From an uncultured Bacteroidales bacterium (GTDB lineage: Bacteria > Bacteroidota > Bacteroidia > Bacteroidales > Bacteroidaceae), in contig CACZJU010000009.1 in assembly GCA_902781515.1 (NCBI GenBank), positions 22,113 through 86,112 of the forward strand: DNA of 64,000 nt, written 5' to 3'. Below, one piece after another: positions 1 to 23,179 of this stretch. A model generated the notes under the pieces. It was not told the origin of the DNA, searched no databases, and saw only the letters and a list, made by a program, of their open reading frames with translations. Position 1 is the first letter of the stretch, and the number at the start of each line of letters is the position of its first letter. Both the position numbers and the translations under genes were made by a program.

Positions 1-1569
1 ATTGGCCTCACGAAGAAGTTGGGCAATGAATTCTTTGTCCATGACTACACGGCGACTATGGGTGTCGAGGTGACCTTGGGCAAGTTTCACGGCCTTACCT
101 ATCATAATTCCGAGAGTGACATGATAAAACTCCAACTCTTCAGCCATTTTTAATGTTTCGCCGATATAATTGCCATATTCCACGAAAGCCTGTTGAGGAA
201 GGTCGGGGTAGAGGGAGCGAAGTTGTTGCTCGCTCTTCATGCCACTACCGATGACAACGCGTTCAGAGCCGCTTGCCTTTGCTACCTCCATGCACTTGCG
301 GATGCTCTGTATGAAAGCCTCCTCCGAGTAGGGTTTGACGATGCCCGAAACGCCGATGATGGAGATGCCGCCCTCAATACCCAATCGTGGGTTGAAAGTG
401 CGCTTGGCAATGTCCTTTCCGTTTGGGACGGAAAGAACAATTGATAATGGATAATTGACAATTGACAATTGCTCAAGGTTCTTGCGAATCATCTCGCGTG
501 GAGCCTTATTGATAGCTGCTTCACCAGGTGGGAAGTCGAAGCCTGGGAGGGTAAAGCGGCCCACGCCCTCGCCGCCTTCTATTACTAACCACTCCCCTCC
601 TTTCGGGAGGGGCTGGGGGTAGGCCTGTGCCCTCACCTCGATGCCATCTGTCACATCTGGGTCGTCGCCTGCCTCCTTGATACAGTAGGCATATCCTTCA
701 CCATAGCCAACGGACACAGTGATGGTTTCGCCATTGGGTAAAAGCACAGGAACTTCGTCAGGCATTTCATTGCGCAGAAGGCGGATAGTTGCTGCAACTG
801 CGGCTGCAGTGGCACATGTTCCAGTAGTAAGTCCACTATGCAGGGGGTAGAACTCAGGCAGCAGGCGCTCCACCATGCGGCGTAGTCCGTATTCGCCATT
901 AACGACGTGGAACGACTGAGGCATTGGTGGACGTCGCAAGGCGACGACGCGCATACCCTTGGCCTTGGCGGCGGAAACTTTCTCTACGAAACCGCCGCTT
1001 GTGCCGCTCTCCTTCAACAGGATGGCATCGGCCTCGACGGGTATTTCCCCAGCCTCCTCGTAGTAGCAAAGTTGTTCTGGCCTTGCGCCCTGCGTAAGCG
1101 CCAGCCTGACTGACGACTCGCGGTCGAGAATGCGATAAAACACAGTGATACCGCTTTCCTCTAAACGCCTGAACCTCTTGATGCTCTGCACGCCGGTGGT
1201 GGCCAAAAGCGATTGGATGTCAGTGGGCACTTCCGAATAGTCGTCAATCCACGTGATGTCGGGGTCGCGCGGTGGATAGATGCGTTCGAAGCGGATGACA
1301 GGAATCTGTAGGGAACAGGCAACTTCTGCGATGGTCTGGTGCAGGACACTGGCAAAGGGGTGAGCCGCATCCACAACGAGCCGAATCCCGTGCTCACCGC
1401 AGAACGCTTCCATTGTCTCCTTGTCCATCGCACCGTCCGTGCGCCGCCCGTGGTGCATCGCCACGTCCTGCTCGCCCGTCTTGGTCGAATACCAATACAG
1501 GCTTCCCGCCTCTTCCAGTGCCCTGATGGCCCTGCGCCCCTCCGTCGTGCCGCCGAATACAAGTATCAT
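1..1569 (-). CDS. cbiJD: CbiJ-CbiD fusion: cobalt-precorrin-6A reductase plus cobalt-precorrin-5B C1-methyltransferase (partial, runs off left edge)
   Basis: Two corrin-ring enzymes in one chain; 523 codons are visible and the 3' end lies outside the window. Residues 1-240 are a CbiJ/CobK reductase, opening with MILVFGGTTEGR and holding VVDAAHPFA near 65-73. CbiD starts near residue 245 with SGLTTGTCATAAA, and later shows GEGVGRFTLPGFDFPPG and TFNPRLGIEGGISIIG. The ATG at 1569 is only 5 nt downstream of a TACCTTTG -7 box, so the message should be almost leaderless. Two short segments do not look like CbiD: residues 317-327, made by a GC-rich palindromic repeat, and 366-379, made by a heptamer array. 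The frame stays open through both. CbiJ and CbiD act in the anaerobic B12 pathway whose other enzymes lie at 11.6-23.2 kb. No riboswitch is seen upstream. Confidence 0.93.
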   Translation of the reverse strand, partial: MILVFGGTTEGRRAIRALEEAGSLYWYSTKTGEQDVAMHHGRRTDGAMDKETMEAFCGEHGIRLVVDAAHPFASVLHQTIAEVACSLQIPVIRFERIYPPRDPDITWIDDYSEVPTDIQSLLATTGVQSIKRFRRLEESGITVFYRILDRESSVRLALTQGARPEQLCYYEEAGEIPVEADAILLKESGTSGGFVEKVSAAKAKGMRVVALRRPPMPQSFHVVNGEYGLRRMVERLLPEFYPLHSGLTTGTCATAAAVAATIRLLRNEMPDEVPVLLPNGETITVSVGYGEGYAYCIKEAGDDPDVTDGIEVRAQAYPQPLPKGGEWLVIEGGEGVGRFTLPGFDFPPGEAAINKAPREMIRKNLEQLSIVNYPLSIVLSVPNGKDIAKRTFNPRLGIEGGISIIGVSGIVKPYSEEAFIQSIRKCMEVAKASGSERVVIGSGMKSEQQLRSLYPDLPQQAFVEYGNYIGETLKMAEELEFYHVTLGIMIGKAVKLAQGHLDTHSRRVVMDKEFIAQLLREAN

Positions 1570-1690
1570 AGGTACAAAGGTAGTGCAAACCGAGCGAAAA
1601 CACAAATTTTATTTGATTTTTCCGAGGTGCAGCCTATCTTCAGCCATATGGCTAAAGATACGATTAAGCGAGCAAAATGCCAAACTTAAT
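1570..1690 (-). promoter_or_regulatory. cbiJD promoter with upstream hairpin element
   Basis: On the minus strand there is TTTG (1603-1606), a 20-bp spacer, then TACCTTTG (1575-1582), an exact Bacteroidales promoter. Just upstream is a hairpin, TATCTT-C-AGCCAT / ATGGCT-A-AAGATA (1635-1660). The whole element closely resembles the one in front of the glycyl-tRNA synthetase gene at 25382-25540. Confidence 0.8.
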
Positions 1691-11574: not shown

Positions 11575-13359
11575 TTATTCCCCACCTTGACCCTTTCGGA
11601 AGAGGTGGGTGAAATGTTTGTTATACAGTTCCGATAGTCCGTGGCGGTTGTCGATGGCCTCGCCCACGACAAGCATGGTGGTGAGCGTGAGGTGGTTGTC
11701 ATGGACTATGCGGGCAAGGTCTTTCAGTTGGCCGCGATATATCTTCTGGTCGGGCCAAGTCAAATGATAACAGGCAGCAACTGGAGTGTCCTCTGGGTAT
11801 TCCTGCAAGAGTTCGCGCTGCACTTCGTCAACAATAGCCGCAGAGAGGAAGATGCACATCGTACTCTGACTCTTTGCCAACAGATGAAGTTGCTCCTTCT
11901 CGGGCATGGGAGTACGACCTTCGCCACGGGTTAGGATGATTGTCTGTGTGCGCTCAGGAATCGTAAACTGACTACGCAACTCAGCAGCCGCTGCAAGGAA
12001 GGAAGATATGCCGGGAGTGATATGATATGACATATTGTTGGCATCGAAGAAAGCCATCTGCTCCTGTATGGCACCGAAGATGCAGGGATCGCCGGTATGC
12101 AGACGAACTATGAAATGACCTTTGTCGTAATGCTCCTTCATCAACGCGCATTGCTCCTCAAGATTCATATCAGCCGATGACCGCACCACAGCACCAGGCT
12201 TATGACATTCGGTGAGAGCCTTAGGCACTAAAGAGCCTGCGTATAATATAAGGTCGGCCTTCTCAAGCATCTTGCGACCTCTTACTGATACCAAGTCTGG
12301 GGCACCAGGACCTGCACCAACAATCTCAATATGGCCCTGTTGGTTTCTGAGATGACAATAATCGATGGCAAGGGCTGCTGTCCAGTTCTTTCCCTTAATC
12401 TTTGGAATGATGAGTTTGCCGTGATTGGAGCCGAGGATAGCAGCAGCCTCACAGACGCTGGGCGTACCAACATGTTTCGCAACAGTATTGCTCGGATTTG
12501 GAACTTCGACAGCGGCAAGTTCCTCGGCAGTATAGAACATTACTTCTTCATCATATTCGTCTTCAAGCATTGCACAAAAATCCTCGTCCTCTTTTACATC
12601 GATAGTACAATAGCGGTGAGAACAAGGAAGAATACCTCTTTCTGCAAAAGCCTCATCGATTTCGTCATAAATGGATATATAATTCTCTGGGTGATGTGCC
12701 AAGCCAAAGCCTATAGTTCCCACCATTGGCACGAAATGAAGTTCGAGCATACCATAAGGTGCAGAGCGATTGTATGGCGATACTATAATCAATAGTTTGT
12801 ATTTCCTCGGATCGGCTTCGTGGATGTCATTGATAATGGTCACGTGGTCTGGCTTGGTTGACTCCAGATAGTCGGTACCCTCGTCGCGAGCCTCCAGTAG
12901 CAGAGCCGTTGGTTTACGATTAACGAAAGCAAAGATGCAGTCGTTCATATCATCGATATCACTGGCTACAGGCCAGTCGAAGCGCTGCTCAAATGTATCT
13001 AAAGCCCATAGTCCGGCATTGTCGCTTTGAGTGGTGATAACATCATGGGCTCCAAGAATACCAGCAATATCTCGCGTCAGCTCATTAGCACCTCCAATAT
13101 GACCACTGAGCACGGATATGACATTCTGCCCCATCGAGTCGATACAGACTACTGCAGGGTCTTCGTGCTTATCCTTGACATAAGGCGCAATCGTACGGAC
13201 ACAGATACCCATAGCTCCGATGAATACGAAAGCATCGAACTGCTTCCATTCCTTGCCAACATCTGTGCGTTGGATGGTTGTGGCATATAGTTGGCGCTTT
13301 AGCGTAGCAGCTATATCGCCACCAGCCTCGCAAATCTGTATAATCGCTATCTTCTGCAT
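11575..13359 (-). CDS. cbiGF: CbiG-CbiF fusion: cobalt-precorrin-5A hydrolase plus cobalt-precorrin-4 C11-methyltransferase
   Basis: 594 residues in two parts. CbiG (about 1-335) shows FVFIGAMGICVRTIAPY and LSGHIGGANELTRDIA in its N-terminal domain, then a C-terminal CbiG domain starting near GTIGFGLAHHPENYIS. CbiF (about 341-594) begins IEIVGAGPGAPDLVSVRG, the SAM-dependent corrin methyltransferase signature, and carries RLHTGDPCIFGA and TPGISSFLAAAA. CbiF methylates C11 of cobalt-precorrin-4; CbiG opens the lactone and releases acetaldehyde, the next step, so the fusion joins consecutive reactions. The start overlaps the end of cbiET by 13 nt, implying coupled translation. It is the last gene of the minus-strand cobalamin run. 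Confidence 0.95.
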   Translation of the reverse strand: MQKIAIIQICEAGGDIAATLKRQLYATTIQRTDVGKEWKQFDAFVFIGAMGICVRTIAPYVKDKHEDPAVVCIDSMGQNVISVLSGHIGGANELTRDIAGILGAHDVITTQSDNAGLWALDTFEQRFDWPVASDIDDMNDCIFAFVNRKPTALLLEARDEGTDYLESTKPDHVTIINDIHEADPRKYKLLIIVSPYNRSAPYGMLELHFVPMVGTIGFGLAHHPENYISIYDEIDEAFAERGILPCSHRYCTIDVKEDEDFCAMLEDEYDEEVMFYTAEELAAVEVPNPSNTVAKHVGTPSVCEAAAILGSNHGKLIIPKIKGKNWTAALAIDYCHLRNQQGHIEIVGAGPGAPDLVSVRGRKMLEKADLILYAGSLVPKALTECHKPGAVVRSSADMNLEEQCALMKEHYDKGHFIVRLHTGDPCIFGAIQEQMAFFDANNMSYHITPGISSFLAAAAELRSQFTIPERTQTIILTRGEGRTPMPEKEQLHLLAKSQSTMCIFLSAAIVDEVQRELLQEYPEDTPVAACYHLTWPDQKIYRGQLKDLARIVHDNHLTLTTMLVVGEAIDNRHGLSELYNKHFTHLFRKGQGGE

Positions 13360-14585
13360 CGTAATATGGTAATTGGGTGATTGTCGTTAAGTTGTATTCT
13401 TATTGGTGGGTCATGTCTAAGCCCTAATTCTGCGCAGGCTTCATCCCAAAGTTGACGACTATCGGTAAGCACCTTGGGAGCAACGACGCTGTTCATCACT
13501 ATCACGCCTTCAGGAGCCAACACGGTCAGCACCTTCACCATGATTTCCTTCAGACATCCGCCGTGACCGCCGATGAAGACGGCATCGGGGTGTGGAAGTT
13601 CACTGATATCTGTTGTGAGGAAGTTGCCAATATGGACATTGATACCCGGAGCTCCAAAGCGACGGGAATTCTTTTGTATGATGACCTCGCACTCCGGACG
13701 AATCTCGAAAGCCTCTATCTGTAGATGAGGAAACTGGAGACGGGCCTCAATGGAAACGCTACCTGTGCAGAAGCCTATGTCCCAAAGTACATGTCTCTTA
13801 GGAAGATCGAGAGCCTGAAGCGTCAATAAACGGATAGGCATTTTGGTTATCATCTTCTCACGACCATCAAGGAGGGTAAATTCGGTATCGGGGAGACCGA
13901 ATTTAGAGGTGAGAGGTAAGAGGTGAGAGGTGAGAGACTCTACAATCACGCAATTCGGAATAGAAACTTCTTGACGGGTGGCTTCTTCGAGGGATAGCGT
14001 GGTTACCTTTTCCTCGTTGGGATTACCCAAATGTTCACCAATGTGCATCTGATAATCCTTATATCCATATTCAAACATGCGCTGGGCAATAGCCGATGGT
14101 GTATGTTCGCGGTCGGTAAGAATTCCTATCTTGTCAGCTCGTTCGATGAGCGCACGGTCGAACTCCTGCCAAGGACGGCCCGTAAGCGAAACTATACGCA
14201 TATCATGATAGGGCATCACCAACTTATGAGCCAACATTTGCAGAGAGTTGAAGGTTGGATAAACAACTATATCAGCCTCTGGAATCTTCCGCTTAATGGT
14301 ATTGGCAAAACCAAAGAACAACGGGTCGCCGGAGGCAAAGACGATAATACAGCCTACCCCCATCCCCTCCCCAAAGGAGGGGAGTTGTGAATACTGTTTG
14401 AATACATCATCAAGGGGTACGGTGATGTCTATCCATTGGGCATCGGATGGGAGCAACGGAGCAACTATCTCGTGATGACGTTTGCCACCTGAGAATACTT
14501 TGCCGTTCTTGATAATCTCCAACACCTCTGGAGTGAACCAAGGCTGCGGATTATCCGTAATTCCTATTACAATGAATCTAATCAT
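13347..14585 (-). CDS. cbiET: CbiE-CbiT fusion (CobL type): cobalt-precorrin-7 C5-methyltransferase and cobalt-precorrin-6B C15-methyltransferase (decarboxylating)
   Basis: 412 residues from the ATG at 14585; a TTG three codons earlier is less likely. CbiE spans about 1-205 (FIVIGITDNPQPWFTPEVL, FASGDPLFFGFANTI) and CbiT about 230-412, with the SAM-binding loop DIGFCTGSVSIEARL near residue 266 and DAVFIGGHGG further on. Together they methylate C5 and C15 and remove the acetate carboxyl. Two repeat-derived segments are embedded: residues about 65-78 (LPSFGEGMGVG, from the GC-rich palindrome at 14353-14390) and about 213-226 (SLTSHLLPLTS, from a tandem array at 13905-13945) in the CbiE-CbiT linker. 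Both leave the frame intact. It overlaps cbiGF by 13 nt. Confidence 0.95.
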   Translation of the reverse strand: MIRFIVIGITDNPQPWFTPEVLEIIKNGKVFSGGKRHHEIVAPLLPSDAQWIDITVPLDDVFKQYSQLPSFGEGMGVGCIIVFASGDPLFFGFANTIKRKIPEADIVVYPTFNSLQMLAHKLVMPYHDMRIVSLTGRPWQEFDRALIERADKIGILTDREHTPSAIAQRMFEYGYKDYQMHIGEHLGNPNEEKVTTLSLEEATRQEVSIPNCVIVESLTSHLLPLTSKFGLPDTEFTLLDGREKMITKMPIRLLTLQALDLPKRHVLWDIGFCTGSVSIEARLQFPHLQIEAFEIRPECEVIIQKNSRRFGAPGINVHIGNFLTTDISELPHPDAVFIGGHGGCLKEIMVKVLTVLAPEGVIVMNSVVAPKVLTDSRQLWDEACAELGLRHDPPIRIQLNDNHPITILRCRR

Positions 14586-14619
14586 AATTGTCAATTATCA
14601 ATTATCCATTGTCAATTAG
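14586..14619. repeat. heptamer tandem array between cbiHC and cbiET
   Basis: AATTGTCAATTATCAATT followed by ATCCATTGTCAATTA: tandem 7-bp units of the AATTATC / AATTGTC type filling the gap between the two coding regions. The same family occurs at 445-475 and 21852-21885. Confidence 0.75.
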
Positions 14620-16023
14620 TTACAGATCGCGGCCTGGTTTCAGTTGTTCGGCATCGTTAAAAGTAAGTATGGCATTACAAAGGGTTGCTGCAAGATTAGA
14701 GCCGCCTTTCCTACCCTCGATGATAATCTTTGGAATCTGCTTCAATGTCTTAACGGCATGCTTACTTTCGCAGACATGCACAAAACCCACTGGAGCTGCA
14801 ATGATACCATCCGGACGCATTTTGCCCTTACGCACCAAATCGCAAATTTCAAAGAGAGCTGTCGGAGCATTACCCACAACGTAGAGAGCCTCGGGATATT
14901 CCTCCGCTGCCAGTTGCATACAAGCCTGACTGCGAGTGATGCCTTTCTCGTCAGCCGTCTGCTTAGAACGAGTGTCGTTGATGTAGCAATGTACCTGAAT
15001 ACCCAGTCTCTCCAGAGCCCCCTTACGGATACCGCTTGCAGCCATTGTCACATCGGTTACTATGTGTTTAAGAGTTCCGTCCTTTACCTTATTATATATA
15101 ATCTCCGTCGCACGTTCATCCATCCACAGACATTCTTCCATACCGAAATCAACCGTTGTATGGATAGCATGAAGCAATGGCCAAAGGCGCCACTTAGGCA
15201 CATCAGGATGTTTCATCTCAGAAAGGATAGTACGGAAACTTTCCATCATGATGGATTGGCCTGGCTTAACATCTTCTTGTGATTGCTCACGATAATAACC
15301 GCGAGGTGTGATAAACTTACCATCAGCAATATATGATTGCGAATTGCCTATCAATACGACGGTAAACATATCTATATCCTCTGGATCGAATTGTCCCAAG
15401 GTGGTTAGTTTTACCTCTTGCTCTTCGCGACCAGCCTGACGGACGTAACCAACAGGTGTTTCAGGAGAACGACCTTCTTGAAGGAATATTTCTACGAGGC
15501 GATAAAGTTGCCAATAGCGCCCGTGCGACTTCGGATTATAGATGGCTGTGACGAAATCGCCAATAGCTGCTGCCTTTATACGTTTCTCAATGAGTGCCCA
15601 TGGTGTCATCAGGTCGCTAAGCGAGATGATGCAAACATCATGTCCTATAGGAGCACCCAACAGAGATGCTGCTTTCTGAAAGGCGCTAATGCCTGGTAGA
15701 ACGGATATCTCTACATTGCTACATTGTGCCTTCGCCATTTCATAAACAAGCGGAGCCATTCCGTAGAGACCTGCGTCACCAGATGAAATGACAACTACTG
15801 TTTTTCCTTGTTCTGCCAGTTGGAATGCCTGCTCAGCACGTTCACGTTCTTTCTTCATTCCAGTGTCAATACACTCACACCCTTCCTTAACGTAAGGCTC
15901 GATGAATTGGAAATAGTATTTATATCCAACAATGGCATCGGCTTTGCCTACGGCTTCCAGTACAGCAGGTGTGATGTCTTCCTTGCTTCCCGGACCAATG
16001 CCGGCGATTATGATTTTTGACAT
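14620..16023 (-). CDS. cbiHC: CbiH-CbiC fusion: cobalt-precorrin-3B C17-methyltransferase plus cobalt-precorrin-8 methylmutase
   Basis: 467 residues. CbiH/CobJ occupies about 1-245 (IIIAGIGPGSKEDITPAVLE, VVISSGDAGLYGMAPL, VLPGISAFQKAASLLGAPIG). CbiC/CobH fills about 255-467, with LLHAIHTTVDFGM supplying the catalytic His of the methylmutase and DVTMAASGIRKGALERLG, GNAPTALFEICDL after it. CbiH makes the ring contraction, while CbiC moves the C11 methyl to C12 to give cobyrinate, so this fusion joins non-consecutive steps. A TATCTTTG -7 box at 16056-16063 with a 27-nt leader gives it a promoter separate from the riboswitch transcript. The heptamer array separates it from cbiET. Confidence 0.95.
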   Translation of the reverse strand: MSKIIIAGIGPGSKEDITPAVLEAVGKADAIVGYKYYFQFIEPYVKEGCECIDTGMKKERERAEQAFQLAEQGKTVVVISSGDAGLYGMAPLVYEMAKAQCSNVEISVLPGISAFQKAASLLGAPIGHDVCIISLSDLMTPWALIEKRIKAAAIGDFVTAIYNPKSHGRYWQLYRLVEIFLQEGRSPETPVGYVRQAGREEQEVKLTTLGQFDPEDIDMFTVVLIGNSQSYIADGKFITPRGYYREQSQEDVKPGQSIMMESFRTILSEMKHPDVPKWRLWPLLHAIHTTVDFGMEECLWMDERATEIIYNKVKDGTLKHIVTDVTMAASGIRKGALERLGIQVHCYINDTRSKQTADEKGITRSQACMQLAAEEYPEALYVVGNAPTALFEICDLVRKGKMRPDGIIAAPVGFVHVCESKHAVKTLKQIPKIIIEGRKGGSNLAATLCNAILTFNDAEQLKPGRDL

Positions 16024-16103: not shown

Positions 16104-18200
16104 TTAGTATCGTAGGCGCAGGGAGGCAATGATGGAACGACCAGGGTTGATGGTCGAGAAGTTGGAACTCCAATACGATGTATCGCGTTGATTAAATAGG
16201 TTCTCTATACCAAGTCCAGGCTCAAGGGTAAAGTGCTTCAATGTGAAGACATGTCGTGTGGTCAGATCCCACTGACCGATTCCATCGGCATAGCCGTAGG
16301 TACTGCTATATCGACGACTCTGAATGTGACCATTGAGACTGACATTGAAATGATAGTTGCCCCACTTACGGCTCCAAGTCTTGTCCCATGCCGCGCTGAC
16401 ATTCCCGACGTGCTTCACACTCTTGTCCACGGGTGTTTTTGTGACAACATAGAGTTGAGTGGCGTTGTCAAGTGACTGTGTTTCGGCCTCGCTGTCCGTG
16501 AAGGTGTAGCCACCGCCGATAGTAACGCCCTTGGGCAGAAGGAAGCGGACAGAAGTGCTTATACCCCGCAATGTTGCCCTATCGATGTTATCGCGCTGTC
16601 GAATGGTTGTCCAGCCTTCAGTCTGTAATGCCGTAAGGTTTGCATCGGCTGCAATCTCAGCATTGGTCATAGTACGATAGTTAATCATGTCGCGAATCTT
16701 GTTCAGGAATCCACTAACAGACAGTCGCATCCAGTGGTTGCTGTATTCGAGATTAAGGTTCAGAAAGTGGTTTTTCTCGGGCTGAAGATTGGGATTGTTG
16801 ATAGTGTATCGCGAGGTTGTCTTAGCCTGATCTGTAGCATAAAGCTGCGACAGTGTTGGAGTACGATAGCCACCTGCGTAGTTAAAGCGGGCGCGGAAGC
16901 CCTTGATGTGATAGAACAAACCTGCATTGGGCGTAAAAGCTGCACCAAAGTTATCGTTCTGAGTGTAGCGAACACCCACGATACCTTCCAATCCCTTTAC
17001 GATGTTTATCTCGTCCTGAGCATAGATATTATAGGTATTGGTTCGTTCCGAATCTATGTTGTCGCTCTGACTCGTGAGACTCTCCTGCACCATCTCTGCA
17101 CCAGCAGTCAGTTTGTTCCACTTGGCCAAGCGGAAGATACCACGCAGGTTCTCGTTGATGTAATGAGTGCGCTTGCGAGTCTCGTCGTAGGCTTCCTTGG
17201 TATCAGTCTGCCAGTAGTCGTAGGAGGATGTGAAGTTGTCGCTATATACATCGAGATAGATGTGAATCTTCTTGTTGGGCGACCAACGTGCTCCACCCCC
17301 GTAAGCGTAGGTCTGGTGGTGCAGGTCGTAGGTGTATGCTTTCTTTGAAGTGTATGTATAGGTGTCTGTCCCTGCTGTCGTGGTCTTCTTCTGGGTGAAG
17401 TATGTAGCATCGGACGGGCGATGGGTATTGTAGTCGTAGAATGAACCGCGCAGATAGACCGACCATTTGTCATCGAACTTCCATTCGAGCCGCTGGCTTA
17501 CATTGTTGCTACCGTAGCCTACGGACATAGGGCGTCCTGTAAGTTTCAGTACCTGAGTGCCGCCTTCATCGAAGGTCTGATAGGGGTTAACCTGCCAGTT
17601 ATCGGCTTGGCGGTGGGTGTAAGAGGTCTGCGAACTGAACTTCCCAGCACTGATGTCCACGTCAATGTTCTGGTCGAGACGACCGTTGTCCCTGATGCGT
17701 GTCTCGGCGGACGCAGACACAGGCTCTTTTCCGTCTTCTGTGATGACATTGATGACACCAGCTATGGCATCGCTACCATAGAGCGACGATGCTGCTCCGC
17801 TATATATCTCAATGCGCTTGACGTTATTCATGCTGATACGCTCCCAACGGTCATCGCCGGTGAGACGCTTGCCGTTCTCCATGATGACGATATAGTCATC
17901 GCTAACGCCTCCGAAGTTGACGAACGTGCCCATACCATTGGTGTGGGTGGTGACGCTGGAGGTCAGCTTAGCCAGTGCATCCTGCAGACTGCTTACCTGT
18001 GCATTCTGCAGTTCTTTGGCAGTAATAACTTGGACTGCCACTGGTGAGTCGTCAGCCTTGTGATAGGTACCTGTACCCGTTATGACCACAGGGTTCAGAG
18101 TCTGCGAACGTAGGCTGTCAACCTTCGTCGTCTTTTTGCCAGTTTGTGCCATCACAAGTAATGGACACAAGACGGTCAGCATGAACATTGTTTTCCTCAT
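16104..18200 (-). CDS. TonB-dependent outer-membrane receptor (BtuB-like)
   Basis: A 698-residue receptor with a signal peptide ending near LLVMAQ. The plug domain (about 35-165) holds PVVITGTGTYHKADDSPVAV, the TonB-box region, and SGAASSLYGSDAIAGVINVI, the usual plug end. The rest is a 22-strand barrel ending in the outer-membrane signal ...ASLRLRY. It is shorter than SusC-type receptors, lacks a carboxypeptidase-like N-domain and has no SusD partner, which fits siderophore or cobalamin uptake. Placement after cbiK in a riboswitch-led unit points to a corrinoid, a tetrapyrrole precursor or cobalt as cargo. A hairpin (18225-18260) lies in the gap before it. Confidence 0.92.
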   Translation of the reverse strand: MRKTMFMLTVLCPLLVMAQTGKKTTKVDSLRSQTLNPVVITGTGTYHKADDSPVAVQVITAKELQNAQVSSLQDALAKLTSSVTTHTNGMGTFVNFGGVSDDYIVIMENGKRLTGDDRWERISMNNVKRIEIYSGAASSLYGSDAIAGVINVITEDGKEPVSASAETRIRDNGRLDQNIDVDISAGKFSSQTSYTHRQADNWQVNPYQTFDEGGTQVLKLTGRPMSVGYGSNNVSQRLEWKFDDKWSVYLRGSFYDYNTHRPSDATYFTQKKTTTAGTDTYTYTSKKAYTYDLHHQTYAYGGGARWSPNKKIHIYLDVYSDNFTSSYDYWQTDTKEAYDETRKRTHYINENLRGIFRLAKWNKLTAGAEMVQESLTSQSDNIDSERTNTYNIYAQDEINIVKGLEGIVGVRYTQNDNFGAAFTPNAGLFYHIKGFRARFNYAGGYRTPTLSQLYATDQAKTTSRYTINNPNLQPEKNHFLNLNLEYSNHWMRLSVSGFLNKIRDMINYRTMTNAEIAADANLTALQTEGWTTIRQRDNIDRATLRGISTSVRFLLPKGVTIGGGYTFTDSEAETQSLDNATQLYVVTKTPVDKSVKHVGNVSAAWDKTWSRKWGNYHFNVSLNGHIQSRRYSSTYGYADGIGQWDLTTRHVFTLKHFTLEPGLGIENLFNQRDTSYWSSNFSTINPGRSIIASLRLRY

Positions 18201-18224
18201 AGGATGAATTCTCTTTGGTTAAAA

Positions 18225-18260
18225 GAACTCCACACGGCAACGAAGCACCGCATGGAGTTC
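18225..18260 (-). terminator. hairpin between cbiK and the second TonB receptor gene
   Basis: Minus strand: GAACTCCA pairs with TGGAGTTC around a GC-rich inner part and is followed by TTTT. It could be a weak terminator or processing site that lowers expression of the downstream receptor. Confidence 0.5.
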
Positions 18261-18292
18261 CACTTTACACATATAGATAGATTGGATAGATA

Positions 18293-19423
18293 TTACTCTT
18301 CAGGATACATGCTGTGGTAAGCATCCTCCAGGAATTCGGCATTCTTGGTGTGGTTGATCCATACATTCAGTACACCAGGAAGCTCAAGCAGACCCAAGGG
18401 ATGCTTGTTCGTTGAAGGCATAGAGACGATGGGGGTATAGCCATTGTTCTTGAAGTACTCGAACCAACTATTGTCTTCACTCTCTGGCTCATCGGCATCC
18501 CAGTAGTCTTCGCCTTCACCAGCCATATCGTTATGAGCGTGGTCACCAGCGATAGACATCAGGGCGTGCAGATTAACCTTGCCGTTGTTAATGCCCTTGT
18601 CCTTCATACGAGCCATTACATCCTGCTTGTAGTTGTCTGGCATATCAACAGTTCCCACGAAATACTTGTTGGCATTGATGGCCTGCAGGGCATTCTCAAG
18701 CTGAGTGTAGCGAACATTAGCCTTGAAGGTGTCGTAGGTGTCGGGGTTACCGTGACCCATGAAAGCCACAACACCATCCTCGTTCTTATACAGCTCATCC
18801 AATTGCTTGGCAACCTCGTTGACATCCTCTATAGAGTCGTTCAGCAAGGGCAGGCCCAGGAAGATGGCCTTGTCCTCTTCCAACTTAGCCAGATACTCGT
18901 CGTCGAGATGAGCACTGGCAATGTAACCGTTGTTCATGAACTTCTTCACGCTGGCAACCACTGCGGCAAACTCCTCACCGGGAATAACCTGCAGCGACTG
19001 TACGTAAATCTTGCTGTACTTGGCAGCACCGATTGCATGCAGCAAGTAACGAGGCTCATAATAGTCACGCTTTACAATGTTGCCATTGTCGTCCTCGTTC
19101 TCACCAACGCTGGCACGGTTGATACAGATGTCACTTGAGAAGCTGACATATACGTCGGCATTGGGGAAAGCCTCTTCGTAAGCCTTCTGAGTAGCATCGA
19201 ATGCCAGGAATGCGTTGTTCCAAGTGGAACCGAAGGCTACCAGCAGCACGGCTTCGCTCTTGCCAGACTTTGCCTTCTGAGCGGCAACTTTGTTGTCGTT
19301 GTAACTGTACTCAGAAACGATGTTAGCATACGTTTCGTCGTCATCATCACCACAAGAGGTGAACACAGGAGCTACCATGCAAAGAGCCAAGGTAGCCAGC
19401 ATGAAAGATTTAATCTTCCTCAT
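18293..19423 (-). CDS. cbiK: CbiK-like sirohydrochlorin cobaltochelatase as a predicted surface lipoprotein
   Basis: 376 residues. MRKIKSF...APVFTSC is a lipoprotein signal (Cys24), and the next residues are GDDDDE, matching the acidic export signal that sends Bacteroidales lipoproteins to the cell surface. The chelatase domain (about 57-376) begins AVLLVAFGSTWNNAF. Expected metal ligands are present as FMGHGNPDTYD (His224) and LMSIAGDHAHNDMAG (His295, His297). The third ligand position reads FVGTVDMPD (Asp260), where the family usually has Glu. The start overlaps the first receptor gene by 14 nt, so they are cotranscribed behind the cobalamin riboswitch. A chelatase outside the cytoplasm recalls the periplasmic CbiK of Desulfovibrio vulgaris. 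Its job may be cobalt or tetrapyrrole capture rather than biosynthesis. Confidence 0.9.
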   Translation of the reverse strand: MRKIKSFMLATLALCMVAPVFTSCGDDDDETYANIVSEYSYNDNKVAAQKAKSGKSEAVLLVAFGSTWNNAFLAFDATQKAYEEAFPNADVYVSFSSDICINRASVGENEDDNGNIVKRDYYEPRYLLHAIGAAKYSKIYVQSLQVIPGEEFAAVVASVKKFMNNGYIASAHLDDEYLAKLEEDKAIFLGLPLLNDSIEDVNEVAKQLDELYKNEDGVVAFMGHGNPDTYDTFKANVRYTQLENALQAINANKYFVGTVDMPDNYKQDVMARMKDKGINNGKVNLHALMSIAGDHAHNDMAGEGEDYWDADEPESEDNSWFEYFKNNGYTPIVSMPSTNKHPLGLLELPGVLNVWINHTKNAEFLEDAYHSMYPEE

Positions 19424-21620
19424 TGTTTGTTTGTTGTTTGGTTGATAAATTATGTTGATTAACTCTCTTTCCGTAATTGAACTTTATAGCGAAGGTGCCA
19501 TGCACCGTTGTTCCTGACGTATTGTTACCTAAGTGATAGGGATGCATCGTACGGTCAACGTAATTAAAGATATTGTCCACACCTAGCTCCAGCCTATAAG
19601 CCAGTTTCTTTCCCGTCTTCCCTAAGTCGTGAGTAGTGTTTATACGCCATATCTGATACTTCTTTCCATCACCATTGTTCTGATAAAAGCGCTTGCTACT
19701 GCCACGTGTCGATAAGTTAACACCAAATTTATAGCGTGAACAGAACGTGTGGGTATACATAGCCGAGGCGCTCCATTTATGGTGTGCTGTACCATCAATG
19801 ACCACATTGATCATCTTGTTCTTAGATACATCATAGAGATTAGCTTCAGTATCAAGATAGCTGTAAGCCGCCGTCAGAGTCAGGTCCTTTATTACCTTAT
19901 ATGATAACGTAACGTCCACGCCATAGGTTTGAGCATCGTCCATATTCTTATACATACGAGCCTGAACACTGCCGCTGCCATCGCCAAGATATGCTGTGGT
20001 TATGCCTGCGGGAATCTCACCGACGGAGACATTCGTCAGTGCTATCATATTGTCCAACCGATTCAGATACCCAGTGACAGATGCCGTAACCTTTCGACCA
20101 CGATACTCAACATTGGCAGAATAGTAGTTGCTGGTCTGAGGATTAAGGTTCCTGTTACCAATATTGAAGAACGTGCTACTACCCATCACATGCAAGTAAC
20201 GATAGTGCAACTCCTTGACTGTCGGAGTTTTGAAGCCCTGACTCCAACCGAGCCTAAAGCGGAAATCACCTGCCGAGAACATGGCACTGACCTTAGGAGT
20301 AAGGCGCACGCCAAAGTTTCTATTCCCGACCAGACGCAGACCGGCCGTAACGTTAAGCCATTTCAGTTTATCGAACTCATCCTGAACATACAGAGCTGTC
20401 GTCCAGTCGTCTGCCGTTCCAGTTTCCGTTCTATCAGGGGCATTAAGATAGTCGTACCTGTATTCCGCTCCAGCGTGCAGGGTATTCTCATAAGGCAGGT
20501 AGAATATTCCTTTCAGTTGTGTCATCACCCGCTGCTGGTCGCTCTGCAACTTACTCTGACCGGGCATCATAGGCACAGAATACCACGTACCATTCAAAGG
20601 ACCGTACTTCTCGCCCTTTAACAGCACGTTTTCGTATGTCTTTTCCGTATAGTCGTAGAAATAGGCATGTTTGTTCCAATCGACATCCAGCGCGAGATAG
20701 TTCTTTCGACTCGTATTTGAATCACCCTTCACTTTTCCATTTCCATTCCCCAAGTACAACTTTCCGCCCATCGATGCCGAAGCGTTATTGTAGCGGAGGT
20801 CATAAGTATATACATCGCAACTGGGGTGGTTGCCCTTCCTCGGACGACAAATGTGCTTTATATAGTAACTTCCTTCGGCATACATTTCAAGATTCTTTGA
20901 TGGCTGATAGGTCAGACGTTCTGCAAGTTGCCAGTTGCGAAACTCGTTCACCGTTTTGTTCTTACTATCTGTAAGAATCGTGCCTTCGGCAAATTCCCTT
21001 GCAGTATTTTGCCAACCATCGTTGCGCTGCATCTGGAATTTCGTTTGGCTTCCCACCTTTCTCAAATTGAAAGCGAAGGTATTGTGCTGGCGCAGGTCGT
21101 TGTGCGAGCCATATCGTGTGGTATTATCTAACAAGAAGCCCTTTTCCGTATGCTTTTTAGTGATAATGTTTATGACACCAGCCATAGCATCGCTTCCATA
21201 CAAGGCACTCTGCGCGCCCTTTACAATCTCTATGCGTTCTATATCGTGAGGGTCAATGAGTCCCAAGTCGTTCTCACCGCCCACATCGCCATGAATACGC
21301 TTGCCGTCGATAAGGATAAGAATGTAGTTATTACCGAGGCCGTTCAACTGCATCTGAGCACCCATATCGCCCTCTGCAAAGGCAAAGGATGCAGTAAGTC
21401 CACTTAATATCTCCTCTATGCTCTTGCCACCGAAACTGTCAAGCATTTTACGGCTGATGACCTCCGTCTGTACGGGCGCATTCTTCAACAGGTGCTGAGT
21501 ACCAGTACCTGTAACGACGACCTCCTGAATGGTGTCCGTGCGGAGTATCGTCTGTGCCATCAACGTGTGGGATATAACCATCATGGCCATCCCAATTGTC
21601 AGACTTAGTCTTCCTTTCAT
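19410..21620 (-). CDS. btuB: TonB-dependent receptor, cobalamin-riboswitch led (BtuB-like)
   Basis: 736 residues with a signal peptide ending HTLMAQ. The plug (about 28-165) has EVVVTGTGTQHLLKNAPVQT and KGAQSALYGSDAMAGVINII; the barrel ends in FAIKFNYGKRVNQH plus a short polar tail that overlaps cbiK. This is the first gene after the cobalamin riboswitch at 21664-21820, which argues strongly for cobalamin or another corrinoid as cargo. It is related to the second receptor at 16104 but clearly diverged. No BtuG- or BtuH-like partner was recognised; the CbiK-like lipoprotein takes the usual position of such a partner. Confidence 0.92.
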   Translation of the reverse strand: MKGRLSLTIGMAMMVISHTLMAQTILRTDTIQEVVVTGTGTQHLLKNAPVQTEVISRKMLDSFGGKSIEEILSGLTASFAFAEGDMGAQMQLNGLGNNYILILIDGKRIHGDVGGENDLGLIDPHDIERIEIVKGAQSALYGSDAMAGVINIITKKHTEKGFLLDNTTRYGSHNDLRQHNTFAFNLRKVGSQTKFQMQRNDGWQNTAREFAEGTILTDSKNKTVNEFRNWQLAERLTYQPSKNLEMYAEGSYYIKHICRPRKGNHPSCDVYTYDLRYNNASASMGGKLYLGNGNGKVKGDSNTSRKNYLALDVDWNKHAYFYDYTEKTYENVLLKGEKYGPLNGTWYSVPMMPGQSKLQSDQQRVMTQLKGIFYLPYENTLHAGAEYRYDYLNAPDRTETGTADDWTTALYVQDEFDKLKWLNVTAGLRLVGNRNFGVRLTPKVSAMFSAGDFRFRLGWSQGFKTPTVKELHYRYLHVMGSSTFFNIGNRNLNPQTSNYYSANVEYRGRKVTASVTGYLNRLDNMIALTNVSVGEIPAGITTAYLGDGSGSVQARMYKNMDDAQTYGVDVTLSYKVIKDLTLTAAYSYLDTEANLYDVSKNKMINVVIDGTAHHKWSASAMYTHTFCSRYKFGVNLSTRGSSKRFYQNNGDGKKYQIWRINTTHDLGKTGKKLAYRLELGVDNIFNYVDRTMHPYHLGNNTSGTTVHGTFAIKFNYGKRVNQHNLSTKQQTNNEED

Positions 21621-21663
21621 TATTTCCGCCCTCGCTTGTTCCTGAGCGTGCGTATATGTTAAA

Positions 21664-21820
21664 ACTTGGTAGGTCTTCTGGCTTTCCCCAGTCCGCTCAC
21701 CTTCCCGATTGCTCAGTGGCTTTTGTCGAGCAGACCCATTGACGGGGATTACAGCTGCAGGTACAGCCCCGGACTTTCACCGGATTCCCTTACACCGAAG
21801 TACCCTTTATAGGCACCCAG
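21664..21820 (-). ncRNA. cobalamin riboswitch
   Basis: Read on the minus strand, the segment has the hallmarks of the adenosylcobalamin aptamer in order: GGGAATCCGGTGAAAGTCC, GGGGCTGTACCTGCAGCTGT, AATCCCCGTC, GCCACTG, GGGAAGG and the B12 box AGCCAGAAGACCTACC near the 3' end. About 45 nt separate it from the btuB ATG. High cobalamin should shut off the receptor/CbiK unit. Transcription would begin just upstream, about 6 nt past the TATCTTTG box at 21838-21845. Confidence 0.96.
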
Positions 21821-21837
21821 TTGCCAAGATTTGCTCG

Positions 21838-21897
21838 CAAAGATAAGAAATAATTATCAATTATCAATTATCAATTATCAATTATTTCTTACCTTTG
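21838..21897. promoter_or_regulatory. divergent promoter pair around a heptamer array
   Basis: CAAAGATA (21838-21845, minus-strand -7 box of the riboswitch transcript) and TACCTTTG (21890-21897, plus-strand -7 box of cbiA) face outward. Between them lies a near-symmetrical stretch, GAAATAATT, then four to five AATTATC units (about 21852-21885), then AATTATTTC. Neither promoter has a TTTG -33 box; the array takes its place. Confidence 0.75.
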
Positions 21898-21902
21898 CGC
21901 TG

Positions 21903-22556
21903 ATGAAAGCACAATTCCTCATAGCAGCACCGCATAGCGGCTCAGGAAAGACTACCATAGCACGTGGTCTAATGGCTTTGTATCGGGAACACGGCTACAG
22001 GGTTCAACCATTCAAGTGTGGACCGGACTATATTGATACGAAGTTCCACGAACGGGTATGCGGAAGGCCCAGTGTAAACCTCGACTCTTTCTTCGCCTCT
22101 GAAGAACATCTGCATGAGTTGTTCACTCATTATACAGCTGGAGCCGATATTGCCATTGTGGAGGGAATGATGGGGTTGTTCGACGGTTACGACCGCGACC
22201 GAGGTTCTTCATCAGAGATTGCAAGAATCCTTGGATTGCCTATAGTGCTTGTTGTTGATGCCCGTTCTGCGGCTTATAGTATGGCTGCCTTGCTGCAAGG
22301 CTTCATCAACTTCCGTCCCGACCTTACATACGCAGGCGTAATTTTTAATAAGGTAAGCTCGCAGCGGCATTTCGATATGTTGCAACAAGTGTGCGACGAT
22401 TTACATATCGAGTGCTTAGGCTATCTGCCCAAGGATGCTTCGCTTGAACAGGGGTCACGATATCTTGGACTCGACTTCTCGGAACAAACCGAGAATAATG
22501 AACTGATAAAACTATTGGAGGAACACGTCAAATGGCAGAGAATTTTAGAACTTTAA
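21903..22556 (+). CDS. cbiA: cobyrinate a,c-diamide synthase, N-terminal (ATPase) part
   Basis: 217 residues forming the P-loop half of CbiA/CobB. PHSGSGKTTIARG (residues 8-20) is the Walker A motif, followed by PFKCGPDYIDTKFH, AIVEGMMGLFDGYD and IVLVVDARSAAYSMAALLQG. In intact CbiA this half is joined to a glutaminase domain, which here is a separate ORF overlapping by 25 nt in another frame. The ATG at 21903 follows TACCTTTG by 5 nt, so the mRNA is probably leaderless; an upstream TTG would translate the heptamer array. The enzyme amidates the a and c side chains of cobyrinate with glutamine and ATP. Either a frameshift or a true split into subunits would explain the break. Confidence 0.9.
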   Translation: MKAQFLIAAPHSGSGKTTIARGLMALYREHGYRVQPFKCGPDYIDTKFHERVCGRPSVNLDSFFASEEHLHELFTHYTAGADIAIVEGMMGLFDGYDRDRGSSSEIARILGLPIVLVVDARSAAYSMAALLQGFINFRPDLTYAGVIFNKVSSQRHFDMLQQVCDDLHIECLGYLPKDASLEQGSRYLGLDFSEQTENNELIKLLEEHVKWQRILEL

Positions 22557-23179
22557 TAGCACGAAATGCCGAATCGTTTTCTTTCCTCTATCAGGAAACC
22601 ATCGACCGCCTTGCATCTCTCGGTCCCGTTGATTTCTTCAACCCAGAAGACTTTAATTATCAATTGTCCGCTCGGCCCATAGGGACGCTTTCAGAGCTAA
22701 GCGGGGAAAGAATTGTCAATTATCAATTGTTATATCTTCCAGGAGGGTATCCTGAGAAGCATCTTGAGGCATTGGTGAAGAACGAAGCATGTCGTTTGGC
22801 TATTAAGGACTTTGCCGAGCGTGGAGGTCGAATCATTGCCGAGTGCGGCGGCATGATGTACTTGTGCCAAAGTATTGTTACTGACGATGGTGAGTACCCC
22901 ATGTGTGGTGTATTCCCTTATAAGATTACGGCTCGTAAGGCAGACCGCAAACTTTCGTTAGGTTATCGTAAGTTCACATTGGACGGAAGAGAATATCGCG
23001 GACACGAATTTCACTATACCCAATTCTTAGGCGAAGTGCCACCATCAATCGTACAGGTATATAACGCAAAAGGGGAGGCCGTAGCCACCCCTGTGCTTAG
23101 ATACAAAAACGTATTGGCGAGCTACACTCACCTCTACGATTTCTATTGCCAGTCGGGAACGCCGCTGCCACTTGGATAG
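22532..23179 (+). CDS. cbiA: cobyrinate a,c-diamide synthase, C-terminal glutaminase part
   Basis: 215 residues making up the class I-like glutamine amidotransferase half of CbiA. It opens with the conserved IARNAESFSFLYQETIDRL and has LLYLPGGYPEKHLEAL, the nucleophile Cys in AECGGMMYLC (about residue 105) and the His in GHEFHYTQF (about 156). The ATG at 22532 lies inside the N-terminal ORF and has GGAGG 9-10 nt upstream, so independent translation is possible. Residues about 43-66 contain two NYQL units encoded by AATTATCAATTGTC repeats, an expansion not typical of the family. The 3' end overlaps the convergent FKBP gene by 37 nt. Confidence 0.9.
   Translation: MAENFRTLIARNAESFSFLYQETIDRLASLGPVDFFNPEDFNYQLSARPIGTLSELSGERIVNYQLLYLPGGYPEKHLEALVKNEACRLAIKDFAERGGRIIAECGGMMYLCQSIVTDDGEYPMCGVFPYKITARKADRKLSLGYRKFTLDGREYRGHEFHYTQFLGEVPPSIVQVYNAKGEAVATPVLRYKNVLASYTHLYDFYCQSGTPLPLG

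Follow-up and report, generated by a model that had tools for sequence, protein, structure and literature searches.

Among the described systems closest to the locus considered here is the Iht system of Porphyromonas gingivalis, in which a TonB-dependent receptor (IhtA), a CbiK-like lipoprotein (IhtB, the same protein as FetB), and an ATP-binding cassette (ABC) transporter are thought, in the accessible part of the source, to take iron from heme (PMC10913741). We analyzed a 64,000-nucleotide stretch from an uncultured Bacteroidales bacterium (contig CACZJU010000009.1, positions 22,113 to 86,112; hereafter the window), in which a CbiK-like lipoprotein gene lies between two TonB-dependent receptor genes, A and B, behind a cobalamin riboswitch. 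The window protein resembles the Iht pair in its CbiK fold, its lipobox, and its adjacent TonB receptor; it shares a supported 41-row clade with IhtB/FetB, whose structure (9b86) is its best match in the PDB. FetB differs in keeping a glutamate that is replaced by aspartate in the window protein and in having none of its insertions, and the two are 28% identical by structural alignment. FetB has been assigned to heme in print, whereas in the window's family most long CbiKs are found close to corrin genes. We tentatively favor, at slightly less than an even chance, a reading in which an outer-membrane chelatase and receptor A would supply an external B12 precursor to a truncated corrin pathway. 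This reading draws on the anatomy of the locus, class-wide motifs, receptor pairing, the riboswitch, co-occurrence with corrin genes, and the failure to detect HemB, HemC, SUMT, and CbiL. A lipoprotein chelatase is a known kind of protein; what is new here is the Asp clade, the link of that clade to a truncated corrin pathway, and the proposal that a precursor is imported.

Two further solved chelatases, Desulfovibrio vulgaris CbiK-P (2xvx, 2xvz), periplasmic by its PDB title, and Salmonella CbiK (1qgo), share with the window protein the fold and the histidine pair (His145 and His207 in Salmonella), but both have Glu where the window protein has Asp. Salmonella CbiK, a cytoplasmic enzyme, is also shorter and falls on another branch of the CbiK tree. 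Its two catalytic histidines have been described (PMC7689651, accessible part). The initial annotation of this locus had taken known CbiKs to be only cytoplasmic or periplasmic, which overlooks the outer-membrane CbiK-like lipoprotein already described with a TonB receptor as IhtA/IhtB (PMC10913741). Outer-membrane vesicles of Tannerella forsythia yielded a CbiK together with a TonB receptor whose locus tag neighbors its own; the same table predicts this CbiK to be cytoplasmic, and the adjacency is taken from the locus tags (PMC4604654, accessible part). BtuG, BtuH, BtuJ, and BtuK of Bacteroides are also lipoproteins encoded with TonB receptors in cobalamin-riboswitch operons, but BtuJ folds as a beta jelly roll, finished cobalamin is bound by several of them, and in the available text none is termed a chelatase (0 occurrences; PMC12751083).

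On the metabolic side, Shelton et al. defined tetrapyrrole precursor salvagers and reported P. gingivalis to lack the steps to precorrin-2 (PMC6461909). Such organisms resemble the present case in keeping the corrin pathway, having lost its early steps, and presumably importing a precursor; they differ in that the validated cases take up 5-aminolevulinic acid (ALA), and the accessible part of that study names no dedicated outer-membrane precursor importer. A survey of ruminant genomes found, in the part available, that cysG and cbiL, as well as cbiJ, cbiT, and cbiE, are missing from most of its partial Prevotella genomes (PMC9306216); unlike these, the window genome has cbiJ, cbiT, and cbiE, as fusions. 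We found no published statement of tetrapyrrole import by a surface CbiK in the literature covered, which was partial and left subscription papers outside.

The exported CbiK and its receptor

The core of the locus consists of the following features.

21651..21835, minus strand: cobalamin riboswitch RF00174, heading the operon (cmscan 79.5 bits, E 5.9e-18)
19410..21620, minus strand: TonB-dependent receptor A, putative partner of the lipoprotein chelatase (PF00593 and PF07715)
18293..19423, minus strand: CbiK-fold lipoprotein with a class II chelatase fold, 376 residues (PF06180, 130.5 bits; AlphaFold2 model)
19334..19354, minus strand: lipobox F-T-S-C24 and acidic motif GDDDDE, read from the translation
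18752..18754, minus strand: His224, counterpart of Salmonella CbiK His145 (alignment)
18644..18646, minus strand: Asp260, replacing Glu (alignment)
18539..18541, minus strand: His295, counterpart of Salmonella CbiK His207 (alignment)
16104..18200, minus strand: TonB-dependent receptor B, in a receptor clade separate from that of A (PF00593 and PF07715)

Read along the minus strand, the order is cobalamin riboswitch, receptor A, CbiK-like lipoprotein, receptor B, cbiH-cbiC, cbiE-cbiT, and cbiG-cbiF. The arrangement noticed in the initial annotation, a CbiK-like gene between two TonB receptors with the first behind a cobalamin riboswitch, thus holds by domain and RNA models (PF00593/PF07715 and RF00174), and receptor B reaches past the interval 18104..21832 that it had delimited. 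The riboswitch is the sole RF00174 match found in the whole genome assembly, which is 86% complete. The start of the CbiK-like gene overlaps the end of receptor A by 14 nucleotides, an offset that is identical in 40 of 73 relatives.

The protein scores well above the curated cut-off of PF06180 (130.5 versus 26.2 bits) and falls below that of the NCBI equivalog for sirohydrochlorin cobaltochelatase, NF047852 (81.3 versus 400 bits). An AlphaFold2 model built on an alignment of 31 sequences (predicted local distance difference test score 87.2, predicted template modeling score 0.85) matches FetB best (E 5e-20; template modeling score 0.89 by target length), followed by D. vulgaris CbiK-P and then Salmonella CbiK, the same order as in a sequence search. 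Both catalytic histidines are retained (H224 and H295), and alignment to the solved relatives places an insertion after each of them, which may change the substrate cleft. The position of Asp260 is Glu in Salmonella CbiK, Desulfovibrio CbiK-P, and FetB, and the Glu of the GTVE motif seen in solved members is absent from the window protein, although the Pfam family states no requirement for it. In an alignment that set the window protein and three solved chains beside 130 distinct relatives, all 78 long lipoproteins keep both histidines and all 78 carry Asp, while Glu occupies this position in 36 of 46 short forms, in 3/3 short lipoproteins, and in all three solved proteins. Asp260 is therefore a fixed mark of one group. 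The substitution that had been read as a hint of a changed role is real, but it is fixed in a clade that keeps both histidines and is not the decay of a single protein.

We collected 174 CbiK open reading frames (ORFs), of which 130 were distinct, and they fall into two classes: short CbiKs of about 266-333 residues, mostly with a Sec-type signal and no lipobox, and long CbiKs of 335 residues or more, mostly with a lipobox and an acidic motif. An acidic motif following the lipobox cysteine is the surface-export signal of Bacteroidota lipoproteins. The lipobox cysteine and GDDDDE reported in the initial annotation are indeed there in the translation (FTSC24-GDDDDE), so the window protein carries this export-type signal and is predicted from the motif to be surface exposed. 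Requiring at least three D/E among five consecutive residues, the first of them two positions after the lipobox Cys, we found the motif in 74 of 79 long CbiKs, compared with 6 of 85 other lipobox ORFs from the same loci, a control that speaks against a chance acidic stretch. A one-off odd protein was set aside because the motifs and Asp occur class-wide among relatives. By a crude rule, all 118 distinct CbiK ORFs retrieved for the window's family show a hydrophobic N-terminal stretch ahead of the domain, and 84 of the 118 have a lipobox-like motif. Since CbiK is exported and the CbiK ORFs account for 32 of the family's 39 CbiX matches, cobalt insertion, if performed by CbiK, would be extracytoplasmic.

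In a CbiK tree of 86 rows, which includes 30 of the 78 long lipoproteins drawn at random, the 41-row set (support 100/98) unites FetB and three short lipoproteins with the long ones. The window protein, but not FetB, belongs to a nested subclade of 37 rows (100/100), which consists of 33 long rows and 4 rows without a lipobox by our rule. Most short forms group nearer Salmonella CbiK. The long class is thus imperfectly monophyletic by label, with four no-lipobox rows inside it and one "long" row, from locus L171, among the short ones. A group of short exported CbiKs occurs in another context, at L175 (9484-10386), L178, and the similar loci L176, L179, L181, and L182. By reading, the neighbors at L175 are ABC-F-like, EngB-like, and Rho-like ORFs, and in the L178 protein both catalytic histidines are replaced.

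Pairing with a receptor is a property of the long class. Under a strict distance rule, a TonB receptor was scored directly upstream of 73 of the 81 long CbiK ORFs, and seven of the remaining eight show one in the gene listing, their ORF starts being over-extended; only the CbiK of L171, the outlier on the CbiK tree, has no directly preceding receptor. A second set of 80 named loci was made up of nearest relatives and is not random (15 repeat the first set and 65 are new); it draws mostly on metagenome-assembled genomes, from Prevotella of the rumen and gut and from other Bacteroidales, and includes the isolate Prevotella pectinovora P4-76. Here, an upstream receptor was present in 76/76 loci with enough upstream sequence. 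The search for lipoprotein-signal CbiK homologs beside TonB receptors that the initial annotation proposed thus bears out the association in both sets. In the named loci, a cobalamin riboswitch was found in 69/72, a lipobox with acidic residues in all 78 covering the N terminus (72 by rule and 6 by reading), and Asp in 80/80, two of them in a variant motif. Of 73 loci in the first set, 53 have a riboswitch within 500 nucleotides of the receptor and 66 have one on the same strand no more than 3.5 kb upstream; these counts come from nhmmer, as a simple search for the GCCACTG box was an undercount (36/73).

The receptors encoded ahead of long CbiKs group in a single supported clade, apart both from type-B receptors and from the receptors that precede short non-lipoprotein CbiKs, in a FastTree phylogeny of subsampled rows in which two rows labeled "other" actually lie upstream of long CbiKs. 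Receptor B falls in a clade that also contains receptors preceding short CbiKs. The receptors had been called BtuB-like, which stands at the level of the superfamily and no further. On the B12-receptor model TIGR01779 (cut-off 599.7), receptor A reaches 115 bits and receptor B 129, and on the BtuB model NF007926 (cut-off 836) they reach 94 and 99 bits; the best solved match for both is the colicin I receptor, with BtuB behind. Receptor A scores 133 bits on the CirA model, above its B12-receptor score, and receptor B scores 132 bits on the hemoglobin/transferrin receptor model, about equal to its B12-receptor score.

Co-occurrence with corrin genes and missing early steps

The distribution of CbiK was examined in 301 genomes of the window's family, many of them incomplete assemblies. 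CbiK and CbiD occur together in 97, CbiK only in 7, CbiD only in 5, and neither in 192 (Fisher p 2e-63, with phylogeny not corrected for). Put otherwise, 97/104 CbiK-bearing genomes have CbiD, and 192/199 CbiD-negative genomes have no CbiK; in the window's genus, 10 of 22 genomes have both and 12 have neither. The long CbiKs of the family lie near corrin genes in 72 of 78 cases. The other six loci have no cbi or cobQ gene in the fetched stretch, and five of them belong to CbiD-positive genomes. Because of these five, we set aside the idea that linkage to the cbi operon alone causes the co-occurrence, although two of the stretches are short (6 and 11 kb).

The early steps of ring synthesis are mostly undetected in the same genomes. 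HemB was not found in 98 of the 102 CbiD-positive family genomes, and among CbiD-negative genomes it was found in 6/199. HemC, SUMT, and CbiL were tested in 80 of the 109 genomes bearing CbiK or CbiD, chosen mainly for completeness; HemC was found in 4/80 and SUMT above its cut-off (185 bits) in 3/80. In the window genome, HemB, HemC, and SUMT over the cut-off were not found, HemA, HemL, and HemD lying outside the search, and the same three were not found in nine corrin-making genomes of the genus that are 87-100% complete. The gene pattern is that of a tetrapyrrole precursor salvager, with CbiD, CbiHC, CbiET, and CbiGF present and the early genes searched for not found. Because HemB, HemC, and SUMT are mostly undetected in corrin makers, these organisms probably cannot build the ring that they modify.

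The distribution of CbiL subdivides these genomes. At a line of 120 bits or more, which we set ourselves and which 35 of the 80 tested genomes reach (1/80 passes the curated 163.25), the 74 tested CbiD-positive genomes include 39 without CbiL. All 39 carry a long CbiK by our own length line, and 37 have no canonical short CbiK, defined by us as 176 bits or more on PF06180; among the 35 CbiL-positive genomes, 17 have a long CbiK and 24 a canonical short one. No CbiL was found in the 86%-complete window genome. A divergent CbiL there was set aside, its four TP-methylases being CbiF, CbiH, CbiE, and the 16S rRNA methyltransferase RsmI. A second class II chelatase was not found either, the genome having one CbiK and no CbiX by PF06180 and PF01903 in a search that did not extend to CobN-type enzymes. 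In loci L074, L087, L097, and L180, CbiL adjoins receptor A and a long CbiK, which suggests that sirohydrochlorin is the ancestral ligand.

Proposed role and rival explanations

In the mechanism that we favor, an exported, lipid-anchored, and probably surface-exposed class II chelatase would pair with TonB receptor A and bind an external B12 precursor of the isobacteriochlorin type, ancestrally sirohydrochlorin and, in CbiL-less lineages such as the window's own, perhaps the trimethylated factor III. It would insert or check cobalt without ATP and then pass the cobalt-tetrapyrrole to receptor A for import, after which it would be moved inward to CbiH and the later enzymes by an ABC transporter; the same contig has genes for a binding protein and a permease. 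The cell would thereby make B12 from a ring that it cannot build, and B12 would shut the operon off through the riboswitch. Surface exposure, the ligand, cobalt insertion, and the direction of transfer are the steps that we infer. A chelatase-receptor pair supplying a precursor would account together for the co-occurrence, the missing early steps, and the export of CbiK. By contrast, the near confinement of CbiK to corrin-ring makers is poorly explained by needs that are probably shared across the family, such as heme or finished B12. Capture of a tetrapyrrole or cobalt in concert with the receptors, as the initial annotation proposed, remains the most sensible role given the lipoprotein motif, receptor partnership, and cobalamin regulation. 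Its interpretation is partly supported overall, and the observation behind it is confirmed.

Several points weigh against this proposal. The weakest link is the need, in CbiL-less lineages, for factor III or a replacement for CbiL: with no CbiL found in the window's lineage, imported sirohydrochlorin would be unusable unless some other enzyme did the work of CbiL, the alternative being import of factor III. The presumed metal ligand has changed from Glu to Asp, possibly with loss of catalysis, and a member of the same clade, P. gingivalis FetB, has been described as binding heme. Operon inheritance can account for part of the co-occurrence, and there are exceptions to it in both directions, with three long-CbiK genomes lacking CbiD and five CbiD-positive genomes lacking CbiK, from which it follows that the CbiK step can be dispensed with or replaced. 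HemB is present in 4 of the 102 CbiD-positive genomes, and four CbiD-positive genomes, beyond the three above the SUMT cut-off of 185 bits, have SUMT-like matches just below it, at about 160 bits. Many genomes are incomplete, and the search covered neither HemA, HemL, and HemD nor CobN-type chelatases. As separate observations, three of the four genomes with near-cut-off SUMT matches also show a weak CbiX-like match outside CbiK, and genomes G253, G271, G289, G428, and G485 have CbiD and CbiL with no CbiK (PF06180) or CbiX (PF01903) found.

The rival that survives best, though we think it unlikely, retains tetrapyrrole metalation and moves it inside: anchored to the inner leaflet of the outer membrane, the lipoprotein would add metal in the periplasm to a tetrapyrrole that the receptors had already imported, as the periplasmic-type CbiKs of relatives might. 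The related short CbiKs of the family, which carry a signal sequence and mostly no lipobox, fit such a location, as does D. vulgaris CbiK-P, close in fold and periplasmic by its PDB title. The enrichment of the acidic motif in long CbiKs (74/79 versus 6/85), a motif known as a surface-export signal, and their pairing with a single receptor clade argue for the outside.

Less probable still is a capture protein for finished corrinoids (cobalamin or cobinamide) that takes the place of BtuG/BtuH beside a BtuB-type receptor. A cobalamin riboswitch heads the operon, and the gene's position is like that in the Btu operons of B. thetaiotaomicron, where several lipoproteins bind cobalamin (PMC12751083, accessible part). 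The BtuG/BtuH analogy, which the initial annotation had drawn, nevertheless fits the distribution poorly because CbiK tracks corrin-ring synthesis, being present with CbiD in 97 of the 104 genomes that have it and absent from 192 of the 199 without CbiD. Cobamide-dependent enzymes are said to occur in 96% of Bacteroidetes species, against 0.6% with a complete pathway, figures that come from the accessible part of PMC6461909 and hold for Bacteroidetes at large and not for our 301 genomes in particular. The fold is that of a sirohydrochlorin chelatase, and both receptors score far below the BtuB cut-off.

Acquisition of heme or iron, with a surface protein stripping iron from heme as proposed for IhtB/FetB, is in our view very improbable here. 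The nearest solved relative is FetB, a "heme-binding protein," and most of the genomes lack detectable HemB and HemC and so probably need outside porphyrin. That need, however, extends to genomes without the chelatase: 193/199 CbiD-negative genomes also have no HemB, yet only 7/199 have CbiK. Regulation is by cobalamin, and disruption of cbiK in B. fragilis reportedly left the use of heme iron unaffected, a result cited as unpublished in the accessible part of PMC6460266. Moreover, in two other Bacteroidales families, cobalamin riboswitches (L173:6690-6906 and L165:11307-11501) precede a TonB receptor and an IhtB-like short lipoprotein CbiK. Because of these two loci, the heme-only assignment of Iht/FetB may be questioned and a role in handling B12 precursors is worth re-examining; the riboswitch evidence comes from L165 and L173 and not from the P. 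gingivalis locus, and no Porphyromonas genome was recognized when FetB was searched for over 295 order-level genomes. Equally improbable is a Co2+ capture protein that hands the ion on to the receptor and binds no tetrapyrrole, for although the conserved His/His/Asp set, the acidic stretches, and the cobalt requirement of the corrin pathway agree with it, it leaves unexplained both the source of the ring where HemB, HemC, SUMT, and CbiL are undetected and the retention of a chelatase fold.

A bolder form of the precursor-supply reading is possible but doubtful: Bacteroidota would have moved an early B12 step outside the cell, a surface chelatase loading cobalt into a tetrapyrrole made by neighbors or supplied by the diet and a dedicated TonB receptor importing the cobalt-isobacteriochlorin, with CbiL-less, Prevotella-like lineages importing (cobalt-)factor III and entering the pathway at CbiH. 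If so, corrin-ring intermediates would be traded in the gut and rumen, beyond finished corrinoids or ALA. The locus is in any case a concrete and widespread candidate for the missing import step, with a receptor-chelatase pair that can be tested.

Neighboring corrin genes

The remaining corrin genes of the window are as follows.

14620..16023, minus strand: cbiH-cbiC fusion, ring contraction methyltransferase and methylmutase (TIGR01466, 325.6 bits, over its cut-off; PF02570)
13347..14594, minus strand: cbiE-cbiT fusion (TIGR02467 and TIGR02469, over their cut-offs)
11575..13359, minus strand: cbiG-cbiF fusion (CbiG N-terminal, middle, and C-terminal domains and TP_methylase, all over their cut-offs)
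1..1605, minus strand: cbiJ-cbiD fusion, crossing the window start, 590 residues in full (TIGR00312, 328.6 bits, over its cut-off)
21831..22556, plus strand: cbiA, nucleotide-binding part, divergent from the operon (NF002204, 262 bits, over its cut-off)
22532..23179, plus strand: cbiA, glutamine-amidotransferase part, in its own overlapping ORF (PF07685, 103 bits)

The TP_methylase part of 11575..13359 we take to be CbiF from its context, and in the cbiJ part of the cbiJ-cbiD fusion the precorrin-6A reductase models score below their cut-offs. Further along the contig are cobQ, cobT, and cbiB, together with genes that encode a periplasmic binding protein and a FecCD-type permease. Among the fetched relatives, cbiA occurs as 22 split pairs, most with an overlap of 4 or 25 nucleotides, and as 27 full-length ORFs; because the split recurs among relatives, it looks like repeated gene fission and not a sequencing error. 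Corrin enzymes are fused pairwise four times at this locus (cbiH-C, cbiE-T, cbiG-F, and cbiJ-D), and a survey that scores cbiJ, cbiT, and cbiE as missing in Prevotella (PMC9306216, accessible part) may overlook such fused genes.

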